From Gammaproteobacteria bacterium (GTDB lineage: Bacteria > Pseudomonadota > Gammaproteobacteria > Burkholderiales > Sulfuricellaceae): 64,000 nucleotides of DNA. Location: positions 1-64,000 of the forward strand of contig JAHJJI010000013.1 in the NCBI GenBank assembly GCA_018823025.1, in the 5' to 3' direction. The notes under the pieces were generated by a model. It saw only the letters and a list, made by a program, of their open reading frames with translations. It made no database searches and was not told the origin of the DNA. Of this stretch, positions 39,406-58,222 are shown in pieces. The position numbers and the translations under genes are program-made. Position 1 is the first letter of the stretch. Each line of letters starts with the position of its first letter.

Positions 39406-40305
39406 TTATTCCTTGCCGCCAGCCGCCTGTATCATGGCCTTCTTGAGCGCTTCTGGAGATTCCATGATCTTCATGAAGCTGTTCGAACCCGACATTTTCA
39501 GGTCTGGGAAACTCAGTGCGATGCGGAAGCGGCCGTACAAAGTAATCACCTTGTTGCCGGTGACCAGTATTTCATGGGGCAGATGCGCAGAGCCCTTGAG
39601 ATCGCTGGAATCAATCATCTCCATGATGTACTTGTCGTCCATGAACTTGTCGCCACCCTTCATGGCCACACCGAACACGGACTCCTTCTTGCCGGTGACA
39701 TCAACACGGTAAACCTTGGTGCAGCCACCCTTCCCGGCCGCCAGATTGGCCTCGACTGCCTTCACAGCTTCTTCGTAGCTGCCATATTCAGCTAGGGGAA
39801 CAGGCTCGTCGAAATACTCCATGCCGAACATATAGTGGTACTTGCGCAGCTTCGAAGCGGTCAGCCCCTTGGCTCCGAACTCTTCCACACTGCCCAGCGC
39901 CGCCTTCAGTTTCTCGGAAGTCTGCGGCAGTTCACTGGCCATGCGATAGCCATTGGCCATGTAAGCCGGGGTGGTGTAGGAAACCTGCACTTCATTTCCA
40001 ACCTTGGTCACCGCGACCCGCTGAGCCGCGCCAAAACCGCCATTCTCGGTTTTAGCCGCCGTGGTCTTCATCTCATCATTGGTCACCACGATGATCGTGG
40101 TTTCAGGATAAGGGGAATAAGAGCCTGCGATGGTAAAACCATTAGCCTGCAATGCGGTTTTTGCCGCTGCCGCCTTTTCTGCTACGGTGCCGGGCCCCTT
40201 GGATCCCAACGTGAAGGGCTTGAGCTTCTCGCTTGCCAAGGCAGATCCCATGCTCAGACCCAAGGTCAGAGTGGTTAGCAACAGATTCTTTATTATGCGA
40301 TTCAT
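39406..40305 (-). CDS. Secreted protein of unknown function (possible DUF302-like repeat)
   Basis: A 299-residue exported protein with signal peptide (MNRIIKNLLLTTLTLGLSMGSALA). The mature part seems to hold two related alpha/beta halves: 'TVAEKAAAAKTALQANGFTI' with 'ETTIIVVTNDEM', and 'YGSYEEAVKAVEANL' with 'CTKVYRVDVTGKKES'. The halves recall DUF302-type folds, but this is uncertain. One Cys is present in the second half. It has its own terminator and a terminator separates it from the FadL gene upstream, so it is monocistronic. It is adjacent to sulfur-related genes. Confidence 0.6.
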   Translation of the reverse strand: MNRIIKNLLLTTLTLGLSMGSALASEKLKPFTLGSKGPGTVAEKAAAAKTALQANGFTIAGSYSPYPETTIIVVTNDEMKTTAAKTENGGFGAAQRVAVTKVGNEVQVSYTTPAYMANGYRMASELPQTSEKLKAALGSVEEFGAKGLTASKLRKYHYMFGMEYFDEPVPLAEYGSYEEAVKAVEANLAAGKGGCTKVYRVDVTGKKESVFGVAMKGGDKFMDDKYIMEMIDSSDLKGSAHLPHEILVTGNKVITLYGRFRIALSFPDLKMSGSNSFMKIMESPEALKKAMIQAAGGKE

Positions 40306-40411: not shown

Positions 40412-41698
40412 TTAGAACTTCATGCCGTAAGCGATGCCCAGAGAATCCTGGTACATCTTGATTTTTTCAGTGCCATAGTTATTTACACCACCACTCATCG
40501 CGGTAAGCAAGCTATCACCAGTGACCGAATTCTCCTTAGCATGCATGTAGGACATGGTAATTTCGGAATCGCGTCCCAGACCGTAGGTGAAGCCCAGTGT
40601 GTAATGATCCGTCACCACACCCGGGGCGAGGATATTGAAGGTCACATCACGAGACTGGATAGGGTTGTCGCTTTTGCTAACGCCTGCACGCAAGGTCAGT
40701 TTCGGGCTGTAGGCATATTCGACGCCCAGTTTCAGCACTTCAACATCACCCCAGCCAAAACCAGGCCCATCGGCGTTTCCAAGCTTAGCACCAAGCAAAG
40801 CATTTGTGCTTGGATTGGCTATCGCTTTCACATCAGAGTAATTAATGCGTTGGTAATCAAGAGCAATCGTGGTTGATGGAATAGGCTTGATTGCGATACC
40901 CACGTTCCAGTTCTCCGGCATGTCAAAATCGCCCTGCTCGGCAAATAACCCGCGATATTTGTCAAACGAGCTCATCTTGATTTTGCTTGAGTATGCTGCA
41001 CCCACTGTCACCATGTCGTTCAGTTTGCCCATGTAACCCAGACGAACACCGTAACCCAGCGCATTGTCGTAACCCTGGTTTGTCAGGTAGCTGGCATCGT
41101 GGGACAACAAGTTAAACCCCTGCAAACCTTCGGCTTTGAAGCGCTGGTAGCCAATCAAGGGCGAAACCCCCACGGAGTGCTGCTCAGTCAACTTGTAGGC
41201 AAAAGTCGGGGCAATCACCAGTTGCAACAGATCAACACCCATTCTTGTGGTTCCACCCAACATATTTGCGGTACCCCCACCAAACTTAAGGCCTTCATAA
41301 TCAGAATTCATGCCGCCATTGCCGTAAACCGTTACGCCAAACGACATTTTGTCGCCCATCATCATATTGAAGCCGAATTCTGGAACCGCAAAATCTTCAC
41401 TGCCGCTATCATGGGTACCATTCATGCTACCGCCGAAGGCCGTTCCACCAGCGCGCTCTGCACTGCGAATCGGACGGAACCAATCCACACCGACATCCAT
41501 TCGATCGCCGACAAACACCATACTGGCCGGATTGTTTGCGCCGCCGAAGGTGTCCTTAGACATCGCAGTCGCCGCGCCGCCCATACCTTTAGCGGTCATA
41601 CCGTAGCCATGGGAAAAATAACCGTTGGTTGCAGAAGAGATCCCTGGCATTGCCAGACCTGCAACAGCCAATACGCCTACCAGTGCTTTTAATTTCAT
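40412..41698 (-). CDS. FadL-family outer membrane channel
   Basis: A 428-residue outer membrane beta-barrel of the FadL type, which passes hydrophobic molecules across the outer membrane. It has a signal peptide (MKLKALVGVLAVAGLAMPGISSA) and the FadL N-terminal hatch signature 'ATAMSKDTFGGANNPASMVFVG'. The end 'SLGIAYGMKF' closes with an aromatic residue as barrels do. ATG 41698 has GGAGGG upstream. In sulfur oxidisers FadL-type porins have been suggested to admit elemental sulfur or polysulfide; that role here is an inference from its place next to the lip/lbpA genes. Confidence 0.9.
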   Translation of the reverse strand: MKLKALVGVLAVAGLAMPGISSATNGYFSHGYGMTAKGMGGAATAMSKDTFGGANNPASMVFVGDRMDVGVDWFRPIRSAERAGGTAFGGSMNGTHDSGSEDFAVPEFGFNMMMGDKMSFGVTVYGNGGMNSDYEGLKFGGGTANMLGGTTRMGVDLLQLVIAPTFAYKLTEQHSVGVSPLIGYQRFKAEGLQGFNLLSHDASYLTNQGYDNALGYGVRLGYMGKLNDMVTVGAAYSSKIKMSSFDKYRGLFAEQGDFDMPENWNVGIAIKPIPSTTIALDYQRINYSDVKAIANPSTNALLGAKLGNADGPGFGWGDVEVLKLGVEYAYSPKLTLRAGVSKSDNPIQSRDVTFNILAPGVVTDHYTLGFTYGLGRDSEITMSYMHAKENSVTGDSLLTAMSGGVNNYGTEKIKMYQDSLGIAYGMKF

Positions 41699-41941
41699 CT
41701 TGTGTGCCCTCCGTTGATCAATTCGTAAATTCTCTATGCCCGGCCGGAATGAATTCGTTCCTGATTGATAACCCAATCCAGACCTTTCGCTAGCCATGGT
41801 CTGAATATGTCACAAACTGTTACATGTCTCAAACACTTTCTAATGATTTTAGTATATTAGCTCTATCTAATTTATAAAAAATCAATTACAAACAATATAT
41901 TAGCAACAAACTGCTTTGTTGCTTTTTCGCAACAATCCGGT

Positions 41942-43063
41942 TTATTCCTGAAGTGATTTAACTATTTCACCCTTCATCTGAAGATGAACGATTTCAATAT
42001 CTTCCGGACCTAACTTAAATGGGTATGACAAAATATTGACCGGATTGCTATCACCATAAGGTCGGTTGCAGGCCGATATTTCAGCATCGTCCTTGCCCGG
42101 GCAACCGGAAGTACGGAATGGCTTGCCGGCGTTGATGATATTCGCCAATTTGCTTTCCTCCATGCCAAAATCAACCACCTGCCCAGCCTCATCGAACACC
42201 ATGCGGCGGAATTCACCACCGGCATAGTCGATGAGGTAGCGTGCTAGTTGCACCCGCCGCCATTGTGCTGGCTCGCAGGCTGGGCTGTCTTCCATCAGGG
42301 AACCTTTCTCGGGGAAGAAGGCAAACAGATGGCTATGACCGCCCATCTCCTTGATGTTTTGCACCACTTCGAGCAATTCGCGCTCCGTTTCCCCCATGCC
42401 GCAAATCAGGTGTGCCCCAAATTTTTCCGGCCCGAAAATATCCGCCGCCCAGGTTATCGCCTGCCAATATTTTTCCCAGCGGTGCGGGCTGTCCACGGCC
42501 TTGCCTCGGGTGCGTTCGAAGATTTCCGGCGTTGCGGCGTCCAGCGCCACGGTAAAGATATCCGCGCCAGCCTGCTTGAGGCGCACCAGATCGTCGCGTT
42601 CCATGGTGGAGGGATTGGATAGGATGGAAACCGGGATATGCGGCAAATCCCTGACCCAATGCGTCAGCAACTCCAGCGTATCGCGGTTTGAATCGGGATG
42701 GCTGATCATGGAAATGCACATACGCTGGAACCGTCCCTTATCCCCGCCAGCCCGAACGCGTGCGATCACTTCCCGGTAGCGTAGCGCCGGCCAATCCACG
42801 CGGATGAAGTTTCGGTCGGCATAATCGCGCGTCTCATCGCGATGCCGCGCCAGGCCGCAATAGGCGCAATTGGCGCGGCAGCCCTCAGGATAACTCAGCA
42901 GCAGGTTAAGGCAATGAGTGCAGTCGGTACGGTACATGCGGCCCGGCACCAAGCCGAGAGTGATGGCGGCTGCCGTGCTCATCTGGACGTATTCGGGAGA
43001 ATGCATCGCTGGCGTTTTGATGCGGTAATCGGGATGGTAAAAATCGGGGGGAATCTCACTCAC
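41942..43063 (-). CDS. lipS1: Radical SAM lipoyl synthase component LipS1
   Basis: A 373-residue biotin-synthase-like radical SAM protein. The 4Fe-4S/SAM motif is 'YPEGCRANCAYCGLARHR' (CxxxCxxC), preceded by 'TDCTHCLNLLL' and followed near the C-terminus by a second Cys set, 'RTSGCPGKDDAEISACNRP', suitable for an auxiliary sulfur-donating cluster. In the recently described alternative lipoate pathway LipS1 and LipS2 together insert the two sulfurs into octanoyl-protein. The start is GTG at 43063, one base after the lipT stop with GAGGAG seven bases upstream. Which of the two SAM genes is S1 is assigned by operon order and the C-terminal Cys pattern. Confidence 0.82.
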   Translation of the reverse strand: MSEIPPDFYHPDYRIKTPAMHSPEYVQMSTAAAITLGLVPGRMYRTDCTHCLNLLLSYPEGCRANCAYCGLARHRDETRDYADRNFIRVDWPALRYREVIARVRAGGDKGRFQRMCISMISHPDSNRDTLELLTHWVRDLPHIPVSILSNPSTMERDDLVRLKQAGADIFTVALDAATPEIFERTRGKAVDSPHRWEKYWQAITWAADIFGPEKFGAHLICGMGETERELLEVVQNIKEMGGHSHLFAFFPEKGSLMEDSPACEPAQWRRVQLARYLIDYAGGEFRRMVFDEAGQVVDFGMEESKLANIINAGKPFRTSGCPGKDDAEISACNRPYGDSNPVNILSYPFKLGPEDIEIVHLQMKGEIVKSLQE

Positions 43064-43064
43064 G

Positions 43065-44135
43065 CTATGGCTCCTCGTAATATTCCTGAAAAGCGACCCA
43101 TCCGCGCCGCTGCACCTTGTCCTCACTCGCTACTGGTGTACCCCAATACTTCCCTAACTCAGCTCGACGCACCACTGCTCGCTTCAGGCTGGCACTGAAT
43201 TGATCTCGGATAATGTTGTCATAATTCATCAATGCATTATCCTCGCACCCCATCAACCAGGCCGCTGCGGCCTGCCCTGCCAACTCGCCGGACACCACGG
43301 CGGAGGCGATGCCGGCACCGGTAATGGGATGCGTCAACCCAGCCGCATCTCCGACGAACAGAATGTTACCCTCCACCAAATTCTGGCGCAGGCCGCTGAC
43401 CGGGATCGCCCCGCCGGTGCGATGTAAAATATCCGCTCCCACTCTGCCCTCCACAACGAGCTTGCAATGAAGCGCATCCAGCACTGCCTTGGGGTCAGCC
43501 GCAAAGCGCTTGTCCACACCGAGGCCAAGGTTGGCTACCCCGCCCTTGGGAAACAGCCAGGCGTAGCCGCCAGGATAGTCTGGAGACAGCCAGATTTCGG
43601 TATTCTCTGCGAACTCCAGCAGCGGCACAGAGTATTGCAAGGCATATACCATTTCCTGCTGCGGCAAGCCCAGCGACCTTGCCACGAAGGAGTGCGGCCC
43701 GTCGGCTGCGATTAGCAGCCGATAATCAAAATATATCTCTCCCTGCGGCGTAAGCACTATAGCCGACGAACCCGCGCTATCCAGACTGGTCAGGCGGCTA
43801 TTCAAATACAGCCTGGCGCCGTTTTGTCCAGCCTGCTGAGCCAATGCCTGATCAAATGCGGCGCGGTCTATCATCAGGCCGGGCGCATCACTTTTTTCTG
43901 CCCACCCCGAAGGCAGGTGACTGGTCATGCCCAGAATGCGCTGCTGCAACACCCCCTCGGGCACAGCGTAACGAGCCAACGGCAAGGGAATGAATTCGGC
44001 ACACTGTACCGGCACGCCGATTTCCTTACGACACTCCACCGCAGCCACGCGCAACCCGGCTTGCGCTGCGGCCAATGCCGCCGCGCCGCCAGCCGGCCCG
44101 AGTCCAACCACCAGCACATCCACTTCCACTCTCAT
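43065..44135 (-). CDS. lipT: FAD-dependent oxidoreductase LipT (geranylgeranyl-reductase-like)
   Basis: A 356-residue flavoprotein with the dinucleotide motif 'VLVVGLGPAGGAAALAAAQAG', the second motif 'DYRLLIAADGPHSFVAR' and 'NILFVGDAAGLTHPITGAGI' (the FAD ribityl site), as in geranylgeranyl reductases. In lip gene clusters of sulfur oxidisers this protein is proposed to deliver electrons for the LipS radical SAM enzymes. The ATG overlaps the slpl(AB) stop (ATGA) and its stop is one base before lipS1, so translation is coupled throughout. Confidence 0.82.
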   Translation of the reverse strand: MRVEVDVLVVGLGPAGGAAALAAAQAGLRVAAVECRKEIGVPVQCAEFIPLPLARYAVPEGVLQQRILGMTSHLPSGWAEKSDAPGLMIDRAAFDQALAQQAGQNGARLYLNSRLTSLDSAGSSAIVLTPQGEIYFDYRLLIAADGPHSFVARSLGLPQQEMVYALQYSVPLLEFAENTEIWLSPDYPGGYAWLFPKGGVANLGLGVDKRFAADPKAVLDALHCKLVVEGRVGADILHRTGGAIPVSGLRQNLVEGNILFVGDAAGLTHPITGAGIASAVVSGELAGQAAAAWLMGCEDNALMNYDNIIRDQFSASLKRAVVRRAELGKYWGTPVASEDKVQRRGWVAFQEYYEEP

Positions 44136-45184
44136 CCGAGAGCTTGCCGAATCACTGCTGCAAAATCATCCGGTGTAAGCATCAGCAAATCCGCCTGCTG
44201 CCGAGCGAAAAACGACCGGATTATTTCTTCAAGCCCATCCAGCTGCACATTGCGTAACACCGCCTCCAGATCAACCACCGCGCGCTTCGGGCTGACGAAA
44301 AAATCGCCGCTGAACCACACTTGCCTGATACGACCGGCGCGCGCATCGAACGCGAGACTTACCCGCAGCAAGCCACCGGGAAATTTGCGTGATGCCTGCA
44401 GAATCGGCATATCCGCCGCAGGGAGGTCGATCAGATTGACCCAATCCGGATGGTCGATCTCGGCCAGCGCATCTTGATAACGCGCCAACTCTGCCGCAGC
44501 CAGATTGCCCGGGACGAAAGAAACACCGAACTCCCTGGCGAATGCCTCGGTCAGTGCCGCCTTGACCACCTCAAGGTCGGGCACCTGATCAAGCAGATCG
44601 GCCAAATTTGTCACCCGCTCCCGCGCCGAAGAAATTGCCTTGTCAGAAAGTTTTTCGGCCGGGATGCGCAGCACGCGCAGCATTTTTTCCACATCGAACC
44701 GAAGCAGCAACGTGCCCTGATACATCAGGGCATTGCCCTCGAAAGCGCCGCCGGTGCCGGAAATCTTTTTTCCCTCCACCTCGATGTCATTGCGCGGACG
44801 GTATCTCGCCTCGACGCCCAAGGCAGAAATTCCCCGCGCCGCCGCTACACAGATGCGGCGAGCAATCTGCTCCATGTCGGCGCAGCCGAGAATCTCTTTG
44901 GTCAAGTAGAGTTCCCAGCCGACCTGGGTTTCATCGAAGTAGATCGCCCCGCCGCCAGTAATGCGGCGCTGCACGGCAATATTATTGGCACGACAGTAAT
45001 CGAGATCGAGCTCCTGCTCCGCGCTCTGGTGATAGCCGAGCAGCGCGCTTGGCCGAAAGCGCAAAAAACGCAGGGTATTGGGGATTTCACCAGCCTGACG
45101 CGCTTCAAGCAGGGCGCGGTTGAGGGCGATATTCTCCGCCGCCGGCCTCAGGCCGGTATCGATGACGCGCCAGGTTTTGTCCAT
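44132..45184 (-). CDS. slpl(AB): Lipoate-protein ligase sLpl(AB)
   Basis: A 350-residue fusion of LplA catalytic and LplB accessory domains that attaches octanoate or lipoate to its carrier. The catalytic half has 'RRITGGGAIYFDETQVGWEL' and 'KKISGTGGAFEGNALMYQGT' (the Lys and Gly-rich loops for the acyl-adenylate). The second half begins about residue 260 ('SRKFPGGLLRVSLAFDARAG') as in LplB-type domains. In sHdr sulfur oxidisers this ligase is specific for LbpA. It overlaps lipS2 by 37 bp and lipT by 4 bp. Confidence 0.85.
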   Translation of the reverse strand: MDKTWRVIDTGLRPAAENIALNRALLEARQAGEIPNTLRFLRFRPSALLGYHQSAEQELDLDYCRANNIAVQRRITGGGAIYFDETQVGWELYLTKEILGCADMEQIARRICVAAARGISALGVEARYRPRNDIEVEGKKISGTGGAFEGNALMYQGTLLLRFDVEKMLRVLRIPAEKLSDKAISSARERVTNLADLLDQVPDLEVVKAALTEAFAREFGVSFVPGNLAAAELARYQDALAEIDHPDWVNLIDLPAADMPILQASRKFPGGLLRVSLAFDARAGRIRQVWFSGDFFVSPKRAVVDLEAVLRNVQLDGLEEIIRSFFARQQADLLMLTPDDFAAVIRQALG

Positions 45185-46203
45185 ACTCCGCCCCCCATCA
45201 CCATCTCACCACCCACTGCCATTGAGCAGCAAACAGAGGCAATACGCGCCTTCCGGCCGAGCCGAGCCGCCAGTTCGACCATGCCGTCGGCAGGATGCGC
45301 GATCCCATTCAAACCGGCCATTAGCGCATAGGCATCGATCTCGGCCTTGACCTGACCTGCCGGTCGCGCACAACCAAGCAGCAACGGGATATTCGGCAAG
45401 GCCTGTCGCGCGTCGAAAAAAAAACGGCCGACTTCAAGGCTGTCAGGCACGCTGAAAGGCTGGTGGGCCGGTGCGTAGAACGGCATCACTACCACCAGTA
45501 CAACGGCTGACGGCTGGTGGCGGCGCAGCATTTCCAGCGCGACCCGTTCGCCCAGAAAGTGACCGTAATGAAGCCCCAACACGATGTGCGGCACCACCTT
45601 AAGGCGCGTCGCCACCAGATTCTCCAGCGAGCGCTCGAAGTCGTCCACGCTGCGCTTCAGATGGTAGACTTGGGTAATGGTCTCCTGCGCGCCAATTACA
45701 TCCATCATGGCGGCATCGATGCCGCTGTCTTCCATCCGTTGCGCCATATCCCTGTTGTCCACCAGAGCTGTATGCAGTGCGATCCTGAACTCCGGGAATG
45801 CCTCTTTGATATGACGAATAGTCGCGTAGTAAGGATCGTACTCGACTTCGTTGTGGTGGTTGGAGCCTCCGGTCAGCAGCATGCCGCGAGCGCCGCGCTC
45901 GATCTGCTGGTTGGCTACGCGCCACAATTCATCCGGGGTACGGGCCGGAATCATGCTGGAGAGAATTTTGCCCTTGCAATGATCACACTGCAATTTGCAG
46001 TCCGGTCCGGTAATAGAAACTGCTGGCCAGGCACTCTTGCTGCAGGAGGCGATTTCGGATGTGGCGTAGGATTTGAAGCTTGGCGTATAGAAATCGATGC
46101 TGTCGTCCATTGTATCGGCGGCGCACTGCATTTCCCCTACCAGGGCGGCATCCAGTGAGATGCCCAGGGGCTCGATCTTTGCCGCAATGTTCAGCCAATC
46201 CAT
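45148..46203 (-). CDS. lipS2: Radical SAM lipoyl synthase component LipS2
   Basis: A 351-residue radical SAM protein with the cluster motif 'TGPDCKLQCDHCKGKIL' (CxxxCxxC), 'GARGMLLTGGSNHHNEVEYD' in the barrel and a C-terminal 'ARIASVCCSMAVGGE' with paired Cys. It is distantly biotin-synthase-like and pairs with LipS1. It is the first gene of the four-gene lip unit; its 3' end overlaps slpl(AB) by 37 bp. A repeat element separates it from lbpA. Confidence 0.82.
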   Translation of the reverse strand: MDWLNIAAKIEPLGISLDAALVGEMQCAADTMDDSIDFYTPSFKSYATSEIASCSKSAWPAVSITGPDCKLQCDHCKGKILSSMIPARTPDELWRVANQQIERGARGMLLTGGSNHHNEVEYDPYYATIRHIKEAFPEFRIALHTALVDNRDMAQRMEDSGIDAAMMDVIGAQETITQVYHLKRSVDDFERSLENLVATRLKVVPHIVLGLHYGHFLGERVALEMLRRHQPSAVVLVVVMPFYAPAHQPFSVPDSLEVGRFFFDARQALPNIPLLLGCARPAGQVKAEIDAYALMAGLNGIAHPADGMVELAARLGRKARIASVCCSMAVGGEMVMGGGVWTKPGASSIPA

Positions 46204-46264
46204 TTAAGCACCGCCGCAGTCGTTAAACATGACGGGCTCCATAATGCAGTTCAACAAAACATTT

Positions 46265-46341
46265 AACCGCGAAGGACGCCAAGGTACGCAAAGGAAACAC
46301 AACAACATGGGTTACCTCGCGTTCCTTGGCGTCCTTCGCGA
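46265..46341. repeat. Long inverted-repeat element, copy 3
   Basis: Left arm AACCGCGAAGGACGCCAAGG and right arm CCTTGGCGTCCTTCGCG, nearly perfect over ~30 bp with a short AT-rich centre. It lies between lbpA and lipS2 in their transcription direction, where it may attenuate or process the transcript. Family of 6331-6413 and 39171-39301. Confidence 0.85.
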
Positions 46342-46367
46342 TAAAAAATGCAGTCGACCGGCAACAA

Positions 46368-46814
46368 TTATGCGCAACCCGGAAAACCTTCTGTCTGCAT
46401 CTTGGCCTCGAACGCCTCGGCCGCAGCCAGCCCAGTCAGGAGCGAGCTGGACTCCCCTGCCCAGTCGTAAGGTTTCATCCTGACCAGCCAGCCAGCACCG
46501 TAAGGATCGGCGTTGATCGTGCTGGGCACGGCGACTGCCGCCTCGTTGATGGCAGCAATTTCGCCACTGACGGGCGCCTTGACCGGGCCGACCCATTTGC
46601 CCGACTCAACGGTGCCGGTGGATTTGTTCTGGTCAACCACCCGACCCACTTTCTTTGCCGTCCAGGCAACGATCTCCCCCGACAGAGCGCAGCTGTAAGT
46701 GGTCATACCGACGACAATGGTCCCGTCCGACTCGTGTCGAGCCCACACATTATCGTCCACGTTGTAATACAGGTCATCGGGGAAATTGCAGCCGCGTACT
46801 AAAGCCATTCTCAT
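46368..46814 (-). CDS. lbpA: Lipoate-binding protein LbpA (GcvH-like)
   Basis: A 148-residue protein with the GcvH lipoyl-domain fold. The lipoylated lysine is K73 in 'GTVESGKWVGPVKAPVSGEI', aligned with the ESVKA site of GcvH; the C-terminus 'GAGWLVRMKPYDW' is typical. No glycine-cleavage genes are nearby; the lip genes next door point to the LbpA of the sHdr pathway, which carries sulfur-bearing intermediates during oxidation to sulfite. ATG 46814 has GGAAGG close upstream; ATG 46808 is also possible. Confidence 0.87.
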   Translation of the reverse strand: MRMALVRGCNFPDDLYYNVDDNVWARHESDGTIVVGMTTYSCALSGEIVAWTAKKVGRVVDQNKSTGTVESGKWVGPVKAPVSGEIAAINEAAVAVPSTINADPYGAGWLVRMKPYDWAGESSSLLTGLAAAEAFEAKMQTEGFPGCA

Positions 46815-46831
46815 CTCACCCTTCCAAAAGC

Positions 46832-46865
46832 AAAAAAGGGCAGGCGATATCGCCTGCCCTTTTTT
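46832..46865 (-). terminator. Intrinsic terminator between dsrE and lbpA
   Basis: GGGCAGGCGAT pairs perfectly with ATCGCCTGCCC (46838-46859), flanked by six A on one side and six T on the other, so it works in both directions. It separates the rhd-tusA-dsrE unit from lbpA. Confidence 0.93.
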
Positions 46866-46895
46866 GACTGCATCAGTTCAACCTGCTGCCATACA

Positions 46896-47402
46896 TTAGA
46901 TGTACAGGCAGATATCGGTCTCTCCAGCAAACTCGAAGAACGACGCTGCGCCAACAAACTCAACATTGTCGATAAATTGGTTATGCTCAAATCCGAACAG
47001 TTCCACCGTCATCTGGCAGGCAAGGAATTTCACCTCCGCCTCGACGCAAAGATCACGCAATTCGTCGATTGTGGCAACCCCACAGTTTTTGATGGTCATC
47101 TTCATCAATGTGGTCGCCAGTGATTCATAACCGGGAATGCTGGCCTGAACGATATTGGGAATATTCCAGTTGATATCTTTGAACCACTTCGGCCCAAAGG
47201 GCATCTTCATCGGCATGCCAGGGTTACCCAACGGGCTGACTTTCAGTCCGCTGGTATCCTTGCGAAGAAGTTGCAATCCGTAGAAAGTACAAAACACCTG
47301 TACATCATAACCCAGAGCTGCGGCCGTGGATGCCAGAATGAGAGGTGGATATGCCCAGTCCAGCGTGCCCTTGGTCGCGATGATTGCAAGTTTCTTCGAC
47401 AT
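46896..47402 (-). CDS. dsrE: DsrE-family sulfur carrier protein (DsrE3 type likely)
   Basis: A 168-residue DsrE/DsrF-like cytoplasmic protein: 'KLAIIATKGTLDWAYPPLIL' start, 'ALGYDVQVFCTFYGLQLL', then 'ELRDLCVEAEVKFLACQMTVELFGF' region near residues 114-138. Cys residues are at 38, 107, 119 and 129; the last two fit the active region of DsrE3-type sulfurtransferases. It takes sulfane sulfur from TusA or rhodanese. The rhd-tusA-dsrE set is a hallmark of sulfur oxidisers with reverse-Dsr or sHdr pathways. Confidence 0.87.
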   Translation of the reverse strand: MSKKLAIIATKGTLDWAYPPLILASTAAALGYDVQVFCTFYGLQLLRKDTSGLKVSPLGNPGMPMKMPFGPKWFKDINWNIPNIVQASIPGYESLATTLMKMTIKNCGVATIDELRDLCVEAEVKFLACQMTVELFGFEHNQFIDNVEFVGAASFFEFAGETDICLYI

Positions 47403-47454: not shown

Positions 47455-47682
47455 TTATTTCTTCTTCATGAAGAACTGATATTTGCCACCTTCTTCGGCA
47501 GAAGACAGCAACTCGTTGCCGGTCTGCTTGGCAAAAGCTTGCATATCCTTGACGGAACCCGGGTCGGTGGCAATCACTTTCAGCACTTGGCCGGCAGTCA
47601 ATTCGGCGAGAGCTTTCTTGGTACGCAGGATGGGCAGGGGGCAGTTCAGACCGCTAGCGTCCAATTCTTTATCGAAGTTCAT
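47455..47682 (-). CDS. tusA: Sulfur carrier protein TusA
   Basis: A 75-residue sulfur relay protein with the family signature 'DASGLNCPLPILRTKKAL' (CPxP, active Cys14) and 'GQVLKVIATDPGSVKDMQAF'. It moves persulfide sulfur between rhodanese, DsrE and the oxidising complex. It lies between the rhodanese and dsrE genes, separated by about 50-100 bp on each side. Complete and typical. Confidence 0.96.
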   Translation of the reverse strand: MNFDKELDASGLNCPLPILRTKKALAELTAGQVLKVIATDPGSVKDMQAFAKQTGNELLSSAEEGGKYQFFMKKK

Positions 47683-47782: not shown

Positions 47783-48124
47783 TCAAGCCGCCTTGGCAAC
47801 TGCAAGACCGGACTGCGCCCAAGCCATAATGCCACCCTGCAAGTTATACACGTTGTCGTGCCCCTTGGCAGCCATAAAGGCGCAGGCCTGCGCCGAACGC
47901 GCGCCTGAACGGCAATAGAAGATGGTATGAACGTCCTTATCGAGCTCGTCCGCCTTGATCGGCAACAGGTGCAAGGGCAGATGTAGCGCACCTTCGATTA
48001 CACCGTAAGCGACTTCGTTATCACTGCGCACATCCACCAGGGCAAGATTCTTTTTCTCGCTCAACAGGGAGTGCAACCCAGCAACATCAATTTCCTTGAT
48101 GCCGAACATATTGGTTCCAAACAT
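47783..48124 (-). CDS. rhd: Single-domain rhodanese
   Basis: A 113-residue cytoplasmic sulfurtransferase. It has 'LALVDVRSDNEVAYGVIEGA', the CDC25-like DVR motif and the catalytic loop 'HTIFYCRSGARSAQACAFM' with Cys71, and 'NVYNLQGGIMAWAQSG' at the end. ATG 48124 has AAGGA about ten bases upstream; ATG 48142 and TTG 48148 lack a ribosome-binding site. It probably provides persulfide to TusA next door. It heads the rhd-tusA-dsrE unit. Confidence 0.92.
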   Translation of the reverse strand: MFGTNMFGIKEIDVAGLHSLLSEKKNLALVDVRSDNEVAYGVIEGALHLPLHLLPIKADELDKDVHTIFYCRSGARSAQACAFMAAKGHDNVYNLQGGIMAWAQSGLAVAKAA

Positions 48125-48316
48125 GACGATATTTTCCTTCATCAACAAAATCAGAGTTCGCTAATATACCAAAAAGCAGAGAATCTACAATTGCTTTTAT
48201 TTATGCATGCATAATATTATTCTACTCAATTCCTGTTACTTCTGCTTTTTAAAAGACCACGCAACCGCCCCACAAGTTCCGGAGCGCGAGATCCGTCACC
48301 CATCCTCCCCTATCCA

Positions 48317-53190: not shown

Positions 53191-53400
53191 TTACTTCTTT
53201 TCTTCCACCTTGCAAGTGTTCATGCCGAAAATGCTATAGGCCGGGCACCAGTTCATCACCCCGGTGGCCAGTGGCACAATGCCGATCAGCCCCCACAACC
53301 ACAGGCCATCTTCGCTCTGAAGAATGAACACCAAGGCCAGCAACACGATCCCAGCCACAATGCGAAACCCCCTGTCAATACCGCCCACGTTTGCTTTCAT
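53191..53400 (-). CDS. DUF2892 (YgaP-like) small membrane protein
   Basis: A 69-residue protein with the DUF2892 pattern 'NVGGIDRGFRIVAGIVLLAL', two transmembrane helices and 'GVMNWCPAYSIFGMNTCKV' with two Cys. In YgaP this module is fused to a rhodanese, so the family is linked to sulfur metabolism. ATG 53400 matches family starts; the frame extends eight codons upstream. It follows the sigma-54 activator by 67 bp on the same strand. Confidence 0.88.
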   Translation of the reverse strand: MKANVGGIDRGFRIVAGIVLLALVFILQSEDGLWLWGLIGIVPLATGVMNWCPAYSIFGMNTCKVEEKK

Positions 53401-53467
53401 ATTCTCTCCCAGTTGATATTTCAAGACATTACTGACAAAACACCGCCCTGTAATAATAACCTACTTA

Positions 53468-54841
53468 TCAATCTTTCGCGGGGTGCAGCCCGTAGCGGTT
53501 CAGTTTACGGTACAACGTTCGCTCGCTGATGCCGAGGATATCCGCCACCGTGCGCCGATGCCCGCCATGATGTTCCAGCAATTCGCAAATATGGCGGATC
53601 TCCATTTCTTCAATGGATAGGGCAGAAGGAACGCCCACCATTGGGGGAGGCACCGGACTGCCCACTAAAACCCCTGTTCGCATTGCCGTCTGTACCTTTT
53701 CCTCGTTCATACTGTCGAATTGAATATGTTTGGCATGAATGATCCCGTTGCTGGACAAAGCAACCGCCTTCTGCAAAACATTACGCAGTTCGCGCACGTT
53801 GCCGGGATAATCATAGTTCATCAACCGTGAAATGGCGTCTGCAGCAAGTCTTGGAATATTCTTCCCTGCCCCGCTGATGCGGGCAAGCAACGCATCAGCC
53901 AGCGCAGGAATATCCGGACGGCGCTCGCGCAGAGAGGGAAGCATCACGTCGATACCGGCGATTCGGTAATACAAATCCTCGCGAAACAACCCCTGGTCCA
54001 CCCGCTCCAGCAAATTCCGGTTGGTGGCGGAAATAATCCGCACATCTGCTGTCAGGGTTACCGTACCACCAACCCGGCGGAATTCTCCGGTCTCCAGCAC
54101 GCGCAGGAGCTTGGGTTGCATTGAAAGTGGGATTTCCCCGATTTCGTCGAGAAACAGCGTTCCGCCCCCCGCCAGTTCAAACAATCCTTGTTTGCGTCCG
54201 ACACAGCCCGTGAAAGCACCTCGCTCGTGGCCAAAGAATTCACTCTCGAACACCGATTCGGCGATAGCCGCGCAATTGACTGAGACATACGGGCGGCCGC
54301 CCCGTGTTGAAAGCTTGTGCACGAATTCCGCTGCCAGTTCCTTACCGACGCCGCTTTCCCCATACAGCAGTATCGGCGCATCCGACTCGGCCACTCGGCC
54401 CAGCTTGTCTGCACACTGCAGAAAGGCGGGCGAATGGCCGATCATGCGCATTTCATCGCAATCCAGTTCTTCCGAAGATGCCAACGGTACGATAGCCTCG
54501 CCCAAGTAAAGGCAACCGTCCCGCCCGCGAATCGGATACCCCTTGAGGCGCACCCGCTCGGCGCGATTGTTATTGTCGTAATGAATATGCAGTACCTGGC
54601 AAGCCTCACCGGTTGCAAATACCTTCTGGTGAGGACAGACCTCGCCGTTCTCATGACAGGGAACGGAGGAATGATGGGAAATTTCGTGGCACAAGCGGCC
54701 CACAATCTCCTCCGGATTCAAACCATATACCTGACAATAAGCATTGTTTGCAGAAACCACACGGTAATCCTTATCGATCAGGACGAATGGATTTTCCTGG
54801 ATATTGATCAGAGATTGCAGGTCGAGAGAAAGATCGTTCAT
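53468..54841 (-). CDS. Sigma-54-dependent activator with Cys/His-rich PAS domain
   Basis: A 457-residue bacterial enhancer-binding protein. N-terminal PAS (about 5-120) carries C51-H52…H56-H57…C62…C69 in 'GRLCHEISHHSSVPCHE', a potential redox, metal or persulfide site. The AAA+ domain has Walker A 'GESGVGKE' (161-168), Walker B 'LFLDE' and the sigma-54 contact loop GAFTGC (208-213) where the family consensus is GAFTGA. A Fis-type helix-turn-helix ends the protein ('HRRTVADILGISERTLYRKL'). ATG 54841 is preferred; a longer frame to 54901 would overlap the dyad sites. It is divergent from the SQR operon and very likely its regulator. Confidence 0.9.
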   Translation of the reverse strand: MNDLSLDLQSLINIQENPFVLIDKDYRVVSANNAYCQVYGLNPEEIVGRLCHEISHHSSVPCHENGEVCPHQKVFATGEACQVLHIHYDNNNRAERVRLKGYPIRGRDGCLYLGEAIVPLASSEELDCDEMRMIGHSPAFLQCADKLGRVAESDAPILLYGESGVGKELAAEFVHKLSTRGGRPYVSVNCAAIAESVFESEFFGHERGAFTGCVGRKQGLFELAGGGTLFLDEIGEIPLSMQPKLLRVLETGEFRRVGGTVTLTADVRIISATNRNLLERVDQGLFREDLYYRIAGIDVMLPSLRERRPDIPALADALLARISGAGKNIPRLAADAISRLMNYDYPGNVRELRNVLQKAVALSSNGIIHAKHIQFDSMNEEKVQTAMRTGVLVGSPVPPPMVGVPSALSIEEMEIRHICELLEHHGGHRRTVADILGISERTLYRKLNRYGLHPAKD

Positions 54842-54854
54842 TTTTAGCGTCACC

Positions 54855-54989
54855 TCATGACAGATTGTCATGACACAGTATAACCATGACCAAGCTGCCA
54901 TGTAAATGGTAAAGCTGTTGGCTCAACAGGCTGATAAAACATTTCTTAATGAATGACCATACTGCCATATTGACATGACAGCCTGTCAT
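54855..54989 (+). promoter_or_regulatory. Candidate upstream activator sites (four dyads)
   Basis: Two sites match ATGACA-N3-TGTCAT perfectly: 54857-54871 (its arms extend to 8 bp, TCATGACA-N3-TGTCATGA) and 54975-54989. Two weaker ATGACC-N4-TGCCAT dyads lie at 54886-54901 and 54953-54968. Centres of adjacent sites in each pair are about 22 and 30 bp apart, two to three helical turns. They lie 50-210 bp before the sigma-54 promoter, the usual enhancer distance. Confidence 0.65.
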
Positions 54990-55289: not shown

Positions 55290-55353
55290 TTCGGGGAATA
55301 CCCTAATAAAAAAATACCCGGGAAAAACTCTTAACCCATAAGGAACTGTGTAC

Positions 55354-56622
55354 ATGGCACATATCATCATTCTCGGCGCAGGCATCGGCGGCATGTCGTG
55401 CGCATATGAAATGCGGGAGCAGGTTCGCCCTGAAGACAAGGTCACCGTCATTTCGGATTCTCCTTTATTTCAATTCGTCCCTTCCAACCCCTGGGTCGCG
55501 GTCAACTGGCGCACCAAGGAAGACATTACCATCCCCATCGCGCCCTATTTAGAGCGCAAGAACATCAGCGTGATCGCAACACCGGCGAAGCGCGTTCATC
55601 CCGAAAAAAACCAGGTCGAACTGACTGACGGCCAAATCGTCGATTACGACTTTCTGGTCATCGCTACCGGTCCGAAACTTGCCTTCGACGAAGTAGAAGG
55701 CATGGGGCCAGGCAAGAACACGCATTCCATCTGCCACGTCGATCACGCAGTGGAAGCCGGCAAGGCATGGGACCAGTTCATACGGGATCCGGGGCCGATC
55801 GTAGTAGGCGCCGCACAGATGGCTTCATGCTATGGGCCTGCCTACGAATTCGCCATGATCATGGACACCGACCTGCGCAGACGCAAGATCCGCGACAAGG
55901 TACCGATGACCTTCGTCACTGCCGAACCCTACATCGGCCATCTCGGCCTGGGTGGCGTGGGAGACTCCAAGGGACTGATGGAATCCGCCATGCGCGACCG
56001 CCACATCAAGTGGATTTGCAATGCCAAGGTCACCAAGGTCGAGCCGGGCAAGATGTTCGTCACCGAAATGGATGACATGGGCAACGTCAAGAAGGAACAC
56101 GAACTGCCGTTCAAACACTCGATGATGCTACCGGCCTTCAAGGGCGTGGATGCCGTATTCGGCATCGAGGGCTTGACCAACCCGCGCGGATTCATCCTGA
56201 TCGATCCGTTCCAGCGCAACCCGAAATACAACAATATTTACGCGATCGGCGTGTGTGTCGCCATTCCGCCGGTAGAAGCCACCCCAGTGCCGACCGGCGC
56301 CCCCAAGACCGGCTACATGATCGAAACCATGGTCACCGCCACGGCACACAACATCCGTGCCGTACTCGACGGCAAGGAGCCGGATTTCAAAGCTACCTGG
56401 AATGCTATCTGCCTGGCCGACTTCGGCGACACTGGTGCCGCATTTGTGGCGTTGCCGCAAATTCCGCCGCGCAACGTCAACTGGTTCAAGGAAGGAAAAT
56501 GGGTGCACCTGGCCAAGATCGCCTTCGAGAAATACTTCATTCGCAAGATGAAAAAAGGCACCACCGAACCGATTTACGAGAAATATGTGCTCGGCGTACT
56601 CGGCATCAAGAAGAAAAAATAA
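55354..56622 (+). CDS. sqr: Sulfide:quinone oxidoreductase, copy 1
   Basis: Membrane-associated flavoprotein that oxidises sulfide to polysulfide and reduces quinone. The 422-residue product has the FAD motif 'IIILGAGIGGMSCAYEMR', 'DFLVIATGPKLAF' and 'PVPTGAPKTGYMIETM'. Cys127, Cys159 and Cys353 match the redox triad of characterised SQRs. The C-terminal amphipathic segment 'HLAKIAFEKYFIRKMKKG' fits membrane binding. ATG 55354 has AAGGAA at good spacing; the GTG two codons upstream does not. SQR subtype cannot be fixed without a tree. A terminator follows. Confidence 0.93.
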   Translation: MAHIIILGAGIGGMSCAYEMREQVRPEDKVTVISDSPLFQFVPSNPWVAVNWRTKEDITIPIAPYLERKNISVIATPAKRVHPEKNQVELTDGQIVDYDFLVIATGPKLAFDEVEGMGPGKNTHSICHVDHAVEAGKAWDQFIRDPGPIVVGAAQMASCYGPAYEFAMIMDTDLRRRKIRDKVPMTFVTAEPYIGHLGLGGVGDSKGLMESAMRDRHIKWICNAKVTKVEPGKMFVTEMDDMGNVKKEHELPFKHSMMLPAFKGVDAVFGIEGLTNPRGFILIDPFQRNPKYNNIYAIGVCVAIPPVEATPVPTGAPKTGYMIETMVTATAHNIRAVLDGKEPDFKATWNAICLADFGDTGAAFVALPQIPPRNVNWFKEGKWVHLAKIAFEKYFIRKMKKGTTEPIYEKYVLGVLGIKKKK

Positions 56623-56888: not shown

Positions 56889-56953
56889 TCCCTTGTCGAA
56901 CTTAAATTGATCGTCTTGAAAACAAGAACCTTAACTCCAGGGAACTCGTGCAT

Positions 56954-58222
56954 ATGGCACATATCGTAATTCTCGGCGCAGGCACCGGCGGTATGACGTG
57001 TGCGTATGAAATGCGGGAGAAGATTCGGCCCTGGGATAAAGTCACCGTCATTTCGGATACACCCAATTTCCACTTTGTCCCCTCCAACCCCTGGGTCGCT
57101 GTTAACTGGCGCACCCGCGAAGACATCGAAATTCCGATCGCTCCCTATTTCGAGCGCAGCGGCATCAACCTGATTACCACGCCAGCGAAACGGGTGCACC
57201 CAAAAAAAGACCAGATCGAACTCACCAACGGCCAAATCGTCGAGTACGACTTTCTGGTCATCGCTACCGGTCCGAAGCTCGCTTTCGACGAAGTGGAAGG
57301 TATGGGTCCGGGCAAGAATACGCATTCCATCTGCCACGTCGATCACGCAGTCGAAGCTGGCAAGGCATGGAGCCAGTTCATCATTGATCCCGGGCCGATT
57401 GTCGTTGGTGCTGCGCAGGGCGCTTCCTGCTTCGGACCTGCCTACGAATTTACCATGATCATGGAAACCGACCTGCGCAGACGCAAGATCCGCGACCAGG
57501 TGCCGATGACCTTCGTCACCCCGGAACCCTACGTCGGCCATATCGGCCTGGGTGGAGTGGGCGACTCCAGGGGGATGATGGAATCAATCATGCGCGAGCG
57601 CCATATCAAATGGATATGCAACGCCATAGTTACCCGGGTCGCGCCTGGCAAGATGTTCGTCACCGAACTGGACGACATGGGAAATATCAAAAAGGAGCAC
57701 GAACTACCCTTTAAACATTCGATGATACTGCCGGCTTTCAAGGGCGTAGACGCAGTATCCGGCATTGATGGCCTGACCAATCAGAGCGGGTTTATCCTGA
57801 TCGATCCCTACCAGCGCAATCCCGAGTACGACAATATCTACGCAGTGGGCGTATGTGTCGACATTCCACCGGTGGAATCCACCCCGGTGCCAACCGGCGC
57901 ACCCAAGACCGGCTACATGCTTGAGAGCATGGTCAGTGCCACAGTTCACAACATATGCGCGATGCTCGATGGCAACGTACCCAATCATAAAGCCACCTGG
58001 AACGCCATCTGCCTGGCCGATTTCGGCGACACCGGCGCAGCCTTCGTGGCGCTGCCGCAAATCCCGCCGCGCAACGTCAACTGGTTCAAGGAAGGCAAAT
58101 GGGTGCACCTGGCCAAGATTGCCTTCGAGAAGTATTTTTTGCGGAAAATGAAAAAAGGCACTACCGATCCGATTTATGAAAAATATGTCCTCAATGTACT
58201 GGGTATCAAAAAGTTGAAATAG
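56954..58222 (+). CDS. sqr: Sulfide:quinone oxidoreductase, copy 2
   Basis: Tandem paralogue of the upstream SQR, the same 422 residues with no gaps. FAD motif 'VILGAGTGGMTCAYEMREKI', Cys127, Cys159 and Cys353 are all kept, and 'PVPTGAPKTGYMLESM' is conserved. Differences concentrate in residues ~35-75 ('NFHFVPSNPW', 'PYFERSGINLIT') and in surface loops. Starting ATG 56954 is preceded by AGGGAA at nine bases. No promoter was seen between the modules, so it likely depends on readthrough of the first terminator. Confidence 0.93.
   Translation: MAHIVILGAGTGGMTCAYEMREKIRPWDKVTVISDTPNFHFVPSNPWVAVNWRTREDIEIPIAPYFERSGINLITTPAKRVHPKKDQIELTNGQIVEYDFLVIATGPKLAFDEVEGMGPGKNTHSICHVDHAVEAGKAWSQFIIDPGPIVVGAAQGASCFGPAYEFTMIMETDLRRRKIRDQVPMTFVTPEPYVGHIGLGGVGDSRGMMESIMRERHIKWICNAIVTRVAPGKMFVTELDDMGNIKKEHELPFKHSMILPAFKGVDAVSGIDGLTNQSGFILIDPYQRNPEYDNIYAVGVCVDIPPVESTPVPTGAPKTGYMLESMVSATVHNICAMLDGNVPNHKATWNAICLADFGDTGAAFVALPQIPPRNVNWFKEGKWVHLAKIAFEKYFLRKMKKGTTDPIYEKYVLNVLGIKKLK

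Follow-up and report, generated by a model that had tools for sequence, protein, structure and literature searches.

Why would a sulfur-oxidizing bacterium carry a complete assembly line for a lipoylated carrier protein when the only system that this carrier is known to serve is missing from its genome? The question is raised by five genes at positions 41942–46814 (minus strand) of a 64,000-nucleotide stretch of contig JAHJJI010000013.1, assembly GCA_018823025.1 (hereafter the window, on contig C143), which encode the lipoate-binding protein LbpA2 and a dedicated set of lipoylation enzymes. The genome (3.35 Mb; 99.98% complete) is assigned to Sulfuricella, a freshwater sulfur oxidizer. Published work treats LbpA as an indispensable component of the sHdr system of sulfur oxidation, and ties its lipoylation enzymes to the same system (Cao et al., 2018, PMC6067878; Tanabe et al., 2023, PMC10332631). 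Based on comparison of genomes of the order, we lean towards the reading that sHdr was lost, and that selection would have maintained LbpA2 and its dedicated lipoylation for a role, independent of sHdr, in cytoplasmic sulfur oxidation of the reverse Dsr (rDsr) type.

All five open reading frames are intact and lie in the transcription order lbpA2–lipS1–slpl(AB)–lipT–lipS2; their positions and overlaps and the lipoyl lysine Lys73, as given in a preliminary description of the locus, agree with the sequence, and the family matches are far above chance. The lbpA2 gene (46368–46814) encodes a 148-residue GcvH-like protein (Pfam GCV_H, 4.7e-31) with Lys73 (codon 46596–46598), Cys9, Cys42 and Cys147. 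Its GcvH family membership, lipoyl lysine, N- and C-terminal cysteines and placement in the tree, where it groups with LbpA2 and outside GcvH, are those of LbpA2. Identity as the glycine cleavage H protein was rejected on the basis of this split, and a separate GcvH is encoded with GcvT and GcvP on contig C61. The radical SAM lipoyl synthase subunits are encoded by lipS1 (45148–46203; NF053742, 199.5 bits, 7.8e-59; CxxxCxxC from residue 69) and lipS2 (41942–43063; NF053743, 200.3 bits, 4.3e-59; CxxxCxxC), two names that the preliminary description had interchanged. The lipS2 reading frame used in the profile search was 41942–43069, and translation probably begins at a GTG (43063), a single base past the lipT stop. 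These models (~1e-59) are the best profile matches of both proteins, yet the scores fall under the NCBI curated cut-offs. None of the 399 genomes of the order that we surveyed reaches the cut-off for LipS1, so annotation with the NCBI model overlooks LipS1 throughout this order. Assignment of the radical SAM genes to biotin synthase was rejected, as the bioB model matches LipS2 at just 1.8e-6. Cysteines 69, 73, 76, 278, 325 and 326 of LipS1 are invariant in relatives, and cysteines 50, 53, 64, 68, 71, 118, 323 and 334 of LipS2 are conserved across all aligned relatives.

Linked to the lipS genes is slpl(AB) (44132–45184), encoding an LplA-type octanoate/lipoate-protein ligase (LplA-B_cat, 2.4e-49) with a fused C-terminal LplB domain (NF053749, 1.3e-14, at residues 267–349), in which Lys140 (GKKISG) is invariant. 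The lipT gene (43065–44135), whose position inside the cluster is conserved, encodes a geranylgeranyl-reductase-like FAD-dependent oxidoreductase (TIGR02032, 196.8 bits against a cut-off of 158.8; 6e-58) and proposed electron donor. The same proteins are encoded in the same order, followed by lipY, in Thioalkalivibrio sp. K90mix (TK90_0640–0644, of which TK90_0641–0644 form the lipoate assembly cluster; PMC10332631), and the LipS1 of this genome is 65–68% identical to LipS1 of Thioalkalivibrio species. Profile matches, residues and gene order therefore support assignment of the set to the sLpl(AB)–LipS1/S2 lipoate assembly pathway with LbpA as substrate, in agreement with the preliminary description. 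Based on orthology to tested enzymes, sLpl(AB) would place octanoate on Lys73 of LbpA2, LipS2 would then insert sulfur at C8 and LipS1 subsequently at C6, with electrons probably supplied by LipT. The four maturation genes of K90mix modify LbpA in Escherichia coli (a mercaptooctanoyl adduct of 157 Da); a deletion of slpl(AB) has been made in Hyphomicrobium (PMC10332631). The two-protein lipoyl synthase of Thermococcus kodakarensis (PMC9585515) is of the same type, but is archaeal, with a split ligase and other substrates.

Belonging to this pathway is ordinary by itself. The cluster's own enzymes do not follow the LipA/LipB route, as had been claimed; however, LipB and LipA are encoded elsewhere in the genome, on contig C120, which makes the lip set a second, dedicated system rather than a replacement, as is common among bacteria with LipS1/S2 (PMC10332631). 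That the set might serve as a spare route for ordinary lipoylation, with GcvH and the 2-oxoacid dehydrogenases as substrates, is very improbable: GcvH is available as a standard lipoyl protein, but the genome has LipB and LipA, the tested sLpl(AB) enzymes leave E. coli lipoyl domains unmodified (PMC6067878), and the set co-occurs with LbpA2 in all 22 of the LipS1-encoding genomes of the order that lack sHdr.

The setting of the locus is less ordinary. In K90mix an sHdr operon lies 5′ of lbpA2. The sHdr–LbpA system of Hyphomicrobium denitrificans (Cao et al., 2018, PMC6067878) shares with Sulfuricella the lysine and two terminal cysteines of LbpA2 and the dedicated ligase, but the Sulfuricella locus has no sHdrC1B1A-hyp-C2B2, LbpA1 or DsrE3. 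A search with sHdrB1 gave no match in this genome, in a congener assembled into two contigs or in Sulfuricella sp. T08; positive controls matched, and 32 other genomes of the order gave matches at 65–100% identity, including ones with the Hyphomicrobium-like order of lip genes. Neither sHdrC1B1A-hyp-C2B2 nor a type II sHdr was found in the genome, so the locus does not qualify as an sHdr–LbpA system. Location of sHdr elsewhere in the genome was rejected: the CCG-domain proteins are all assigned (two GlcF-like proteins, DsrK, the HdrB of QmoAB–HdrBC and a large FAD-oxidase fusion), and the HdrB-like protein on contig C138 lies in a QmoA–QmoB–HdrB locus. Incomplete assembly is an unlikely cause, as the two-contig congener has the same gap. 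The genome encodes rDsr, with pieces of dsrA on contigs C83, C54 and C22 together with a DsrK cluster. The absence of sHdr means that the frame of an ‘sHdr sulfur oxidizer’, in which the locus had been placed, does not fit Sulfuricella, an rDsr oxidizer.

The same combination recurs across the order. LipS1 was identified in 54 of the 399 genomes (52 with E below 1e-50, and two in which the gene is cut by a contig end or split), 32 with sHdr and 22 without. All 22 sHdr-less genomes, which span eight genera in five families, encode LbpA2 and also dsrA (fragmentary in some), versus 11 of the 32 with sHdr. Of the 76 sHdr-less genomes that have dsrA, 22 have LipS1; of the 291 that lack dsrA, none does (Fisher p = 6e-17, a value that ignores kinship, the honest unit being the eight genera in five families). 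Gene order takes two main forms. In genomes with sHdr it is rhd–tusA–dsrE2–hdrC1B1A-hyp-C2B2–lbpA1–dsrE3–lbpA2–lipS1–slpl–lipT–lipS2; in those without, it is rhd–tusA–dsrE2–lbpA2–lipS1–slpl–lipT–lipS2, with hdrC1B1A-hyp-C2B2–lbpA1 gone between dsrE2 and lbpA2, and dsrE3 is retained in two genomes (G170 and G045). A tree of the five lbpA–lip genes requires four changes of state between presence and absence of sHdr, and the sHdr-less form is therefore not a single clade. This recurrence in several related lineages suggests a second job for the carrier outside sHdr. There was also no sHdrB1 match in the genomes of four further loci (L150, L193, L194 and L185), which are gammaproteobacterial or unplaced and of unstated completeness. 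One candidate locus (L197) lacks sHdr but was rejected because sHdr lies on other contigs of that genome; absence from a single contig was consequently not trusted. As a separate observation, a second tier of LbpA/GcvH-like proteins (37–47% identity, E 1e-30 to 1e-37) occurs in G169, G263, G030, G081, G250 and G389, some of them genomes that lack LipS1 or sHdr.

Loss of hdr in Sulfuricella is already published: Watanabe et al. (2019, PMC6397845) reported two Sulfuricella strains that lack hdrCBAhyphdrCB and have the conserved flanks adjacent, and proposed its loss. The main text of that paper does not use the term LbpA and mentions lipoate twice, once in a cited title, and its passages on this subject neither discuss lipoate genes nor cover recurrence in other families or the link between LbpA and rDsr in the absence of sHdr. 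In the open-access literature searched (subscription papers and supplements lay outside its scope), we found no paper that takes up LbpA in sHdr-less rDsr organisms, or that addresses the retention of the lipoate module, its recurrence or a link to rDsr.

Is the module kept because it is used? For lbpA, lipS1, slpl, lipT and lipS2, the ratio of nonsynonymous to synonymous substitution rates (dN/dS) is ~0.1–0.2 in most pairs of Sulfuricella species, at dS up to ~1, and Lys73, Cys9 and Cys147 of LbpA2 are invariant in all 22 sHdr-less copies; together these argue for a retained function. Several observations weigh on the other side. In the closest species pair lbpA has a dN/dS of 0.72, on very few synonymous changes. 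The rate of LbpA2 relative to the lipoylation enzymes has a median of 1.16 and 1.07 in the sHdr-less groups f1 and f50, roughly double the 0.53 of group f34, which has sHdr; faster evolution is expected if an interaction has been lost, and the single pair of group f35 has no such rise. One Sulfuricella genome with rDsr (G302) shows a clean loss of the whole lbpA–lip module from the interval that runs from dsrE2 to the FadL gene. It is among 54 rDsr genomes without sHdr that have no LipS1 either, which means that rDsr can do without the module. In a complete genome of the sister genus (G182), LipS1 and LipS2 are absent and LbpA lacks the C-terminal cysteine; this relic (L203:9608–10033, minus strand) lies at the site where G213 carries lbpA–lipS1, and looks like decay. 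The set can also be kept in separate loci, as in G383 and in G213, where lbpA–lipS1 lies by a cysM-like gene and slpl–lipT–lipS2 is found on that contig at a distance of ~21 kb (L204, L056). A general requirement of rDsr for LbpA was rejected, since many genomes that lack LbpA still have DsrE2 and dsrA. By these comparisons the lbpA–lip module appears useful but dispensable, and at times lost.

These losses could alternatively be read as stages in the fading of a relict, in which an ancestor with both pathways underwent deletion of sHdr, and the lbpA–lip genes were left over without function and lost piecemeal. Such a history would account for the absence of the hdr–lbpA1 block between conserved flanks (also PMC6397845), for the faster LbpA2, and for apparent intermediates running from G170 (dsrE3 without sHdr) through G213 and G383 (separate loci) and G182 (LbpA without its cysteine) to G302 (none). 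It sits poorly with five intact genes under constraint up to dS ~1, with catalytic residues invariant in the sHdr-less copies, and with persistence of the module in eight genera. Genes that are not used normally decay fast in bacteria. We regard a functionless relict as rather unlikely.

If the module is retained for use, its partner would be sought in the rDsr line. The lbpA–lip module is attached to the rhd–tusA–dsrE2 sulfur relay, which feeds rDsr, and LbpA2 would act as a lipoyl dithiol/disulfide carrier, exchanging either electrons or sulfane sulfur with components of the rDsr line. DsrE2 was rejected as a discriminating partner because it is uninformative: it occurs in 55 of the 56 rDsr genomes searched (54 of these 56 are without LipS1). 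QmoB of the QmoAB–HdrBC type (a complex thought to accept electrons from APS reductase) was found in 21 of the 22 sHdr-less genomes with LipS1 versus 29 of the 54 rDsr genomes without LipS1 (Fisher p = 4e-4, kinship ignored), and the one genome without a match is 70% complete. This co-occurrence makes the HdrB of QmoAB–HdrBC a candidate partner, no more. In its specific form, in which this HdrB stands in for sHdrB and has LbpA2 as its lipoyl disulfide/dithiol partner, the idea gains from the relatedness of HdrB to sHdrB2 (~33%) and from the plausibility of a cyclic disulfide as substrate of an HdrB-type protein; it is nonetheless improbable, given that the genomes are not independent, that the two gene sets are physically unlinked, and that Qmo also occurs in relatives without a working LbpA module (G302, G106, G182 and G273). 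The broader proposal that the lipoyl arm of LbpA2 may serve as a sulfur or electron shuttle of the rDsr line, possibly for this HdrB, with lipoate as an rDsr cofactor, is one that we offer tentatively and hold less firmly than sHdr-independent retention itself.

The arrangement of the genes bears on how the carrier and its maturation enzymes may be expressed. Overlap of lipS1 with slpl by 37 bp, an ATGA overlap of slpl with lipT and a 1-bp gap between lipT and lipS2 confine tight coupling to lipS1–slpl–lipT–lipS2; the single coupled unit of five genes originally proposed holds for these four, but lbpA is set off by a 164-bp gap that contains an inverted repeat (46264–46349; CGCGAAGGACGCCAAGG.../...CCTTGGCGTCCTTCGCG). 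In the close relatives G014 and G145 this gap is only 4–7 bp, and has no inverted repeat. The lbpA2–lipS1 gaps of five loci with sHdr (L078, L081, L085, L088 and L096) contain a conserved hairpin, GGGGCGAT...ATCGCCCC, which suggests that the maturation genes may be expressed below the level of the carrier. Upstream of lbpA, a strong terminator-like hairpin (46832–46865, minus strand; GGGCAGGCGATATCGCCTGCCC followed by TTTTTT; fold z-score −4.8 over 46805–46900) separates it from dsrE2. Equivalent hairpins lie 3′ of dsrE2 in Sulfuricella and in other families, with and without sHdr alike, and it is at this position, between dsrE2 and lbpA, that the sHdr block of relatives is found. With only 17 bases from the T-run to the start of lbpA, there is hardly space for a promoter, and lbpA is therefore likely reached by read-through from the sulfur relay genes.

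The relay genes precede the cluster on the minus strand in the order rhd, tusA, dsrE2, and lipS2 is followed by genes for an outer-membrane protein of the FadL type and for a conserved secreted protein. The rhd gene (47783–48148), first in the conserved rhd–tusA–dsrE2 block of relatives, encodes a cytoplasmic rhodanese-like sulfurtransferase (Pfam Rhodanese, 4.7e-20); its start is called at TTG, and a shorter start is likely. The sulfur carrier protein gene tusA (47455–47682; Pfam TusA, 4.7e-26) is conserved in position, and dsrE2 (46896–47402) encodes a sulfur carrier/sulfurtransferase protein (NCBIfam SulfCarrDsrE2, 248 bits; cut-off 210). The lipY-like FadL/TodX gene (40412–41797, likely start 41698; minus strand; Pfam Toluene_X, 4.7e-30) lies 3′ of lipS2 in most relatives; the published account gives lipY, a neighbour of lipS2, a putative role in fatty acid transport (PMC10332631). 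The secreted protein (39406–40305, minus strand), with no Pfam or NCBIfam match, is usually the last gene of sHdr-less neighbourhoods, stands beside FadL in most of these clusters and is kept in G302, where lbpA–lip is gone. Further along the window, two tandem flavoproteins that resemble sulfide:quinone reductase (SQR; type III-like, ~1e-33; 55348–56622 and 56948–58222, plus strand) are 84% identical to each other. A sigma-54-dependent regulator with a PAS domain (53468–54901, minus strand), possibly a sulfur regulator, adjoins this pair and a YgaP-like transmembrane protein (53191–53424). A YeeE/YedE (Sulf_transp, TsuA-like) transporter is encoded near sulfur genes just outside the window on C143 (L018:541–1743).

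LipS1/S2 are wider than sHdr, which is present in 42% of the bacteria that have them (Tanabe et al., 2023, PMC10332631), and with sHdr-less carriers of the module in this order, lipS1/S2 or lbpA are unsafe as markers of the sHdr pathway, whether in genomic or in metagenomic data. Whether LbpA works together with the sulfur relay or rDsr can be tested cleanly in cultured Sulfuricella strains, which encode the carrier and its lipoylation enzymes but lack sHdr. If LbpA2 does act as a shuttle for the rDsr line, lipoate would be a cofactor of reverse Dsr sulfur oxidation.

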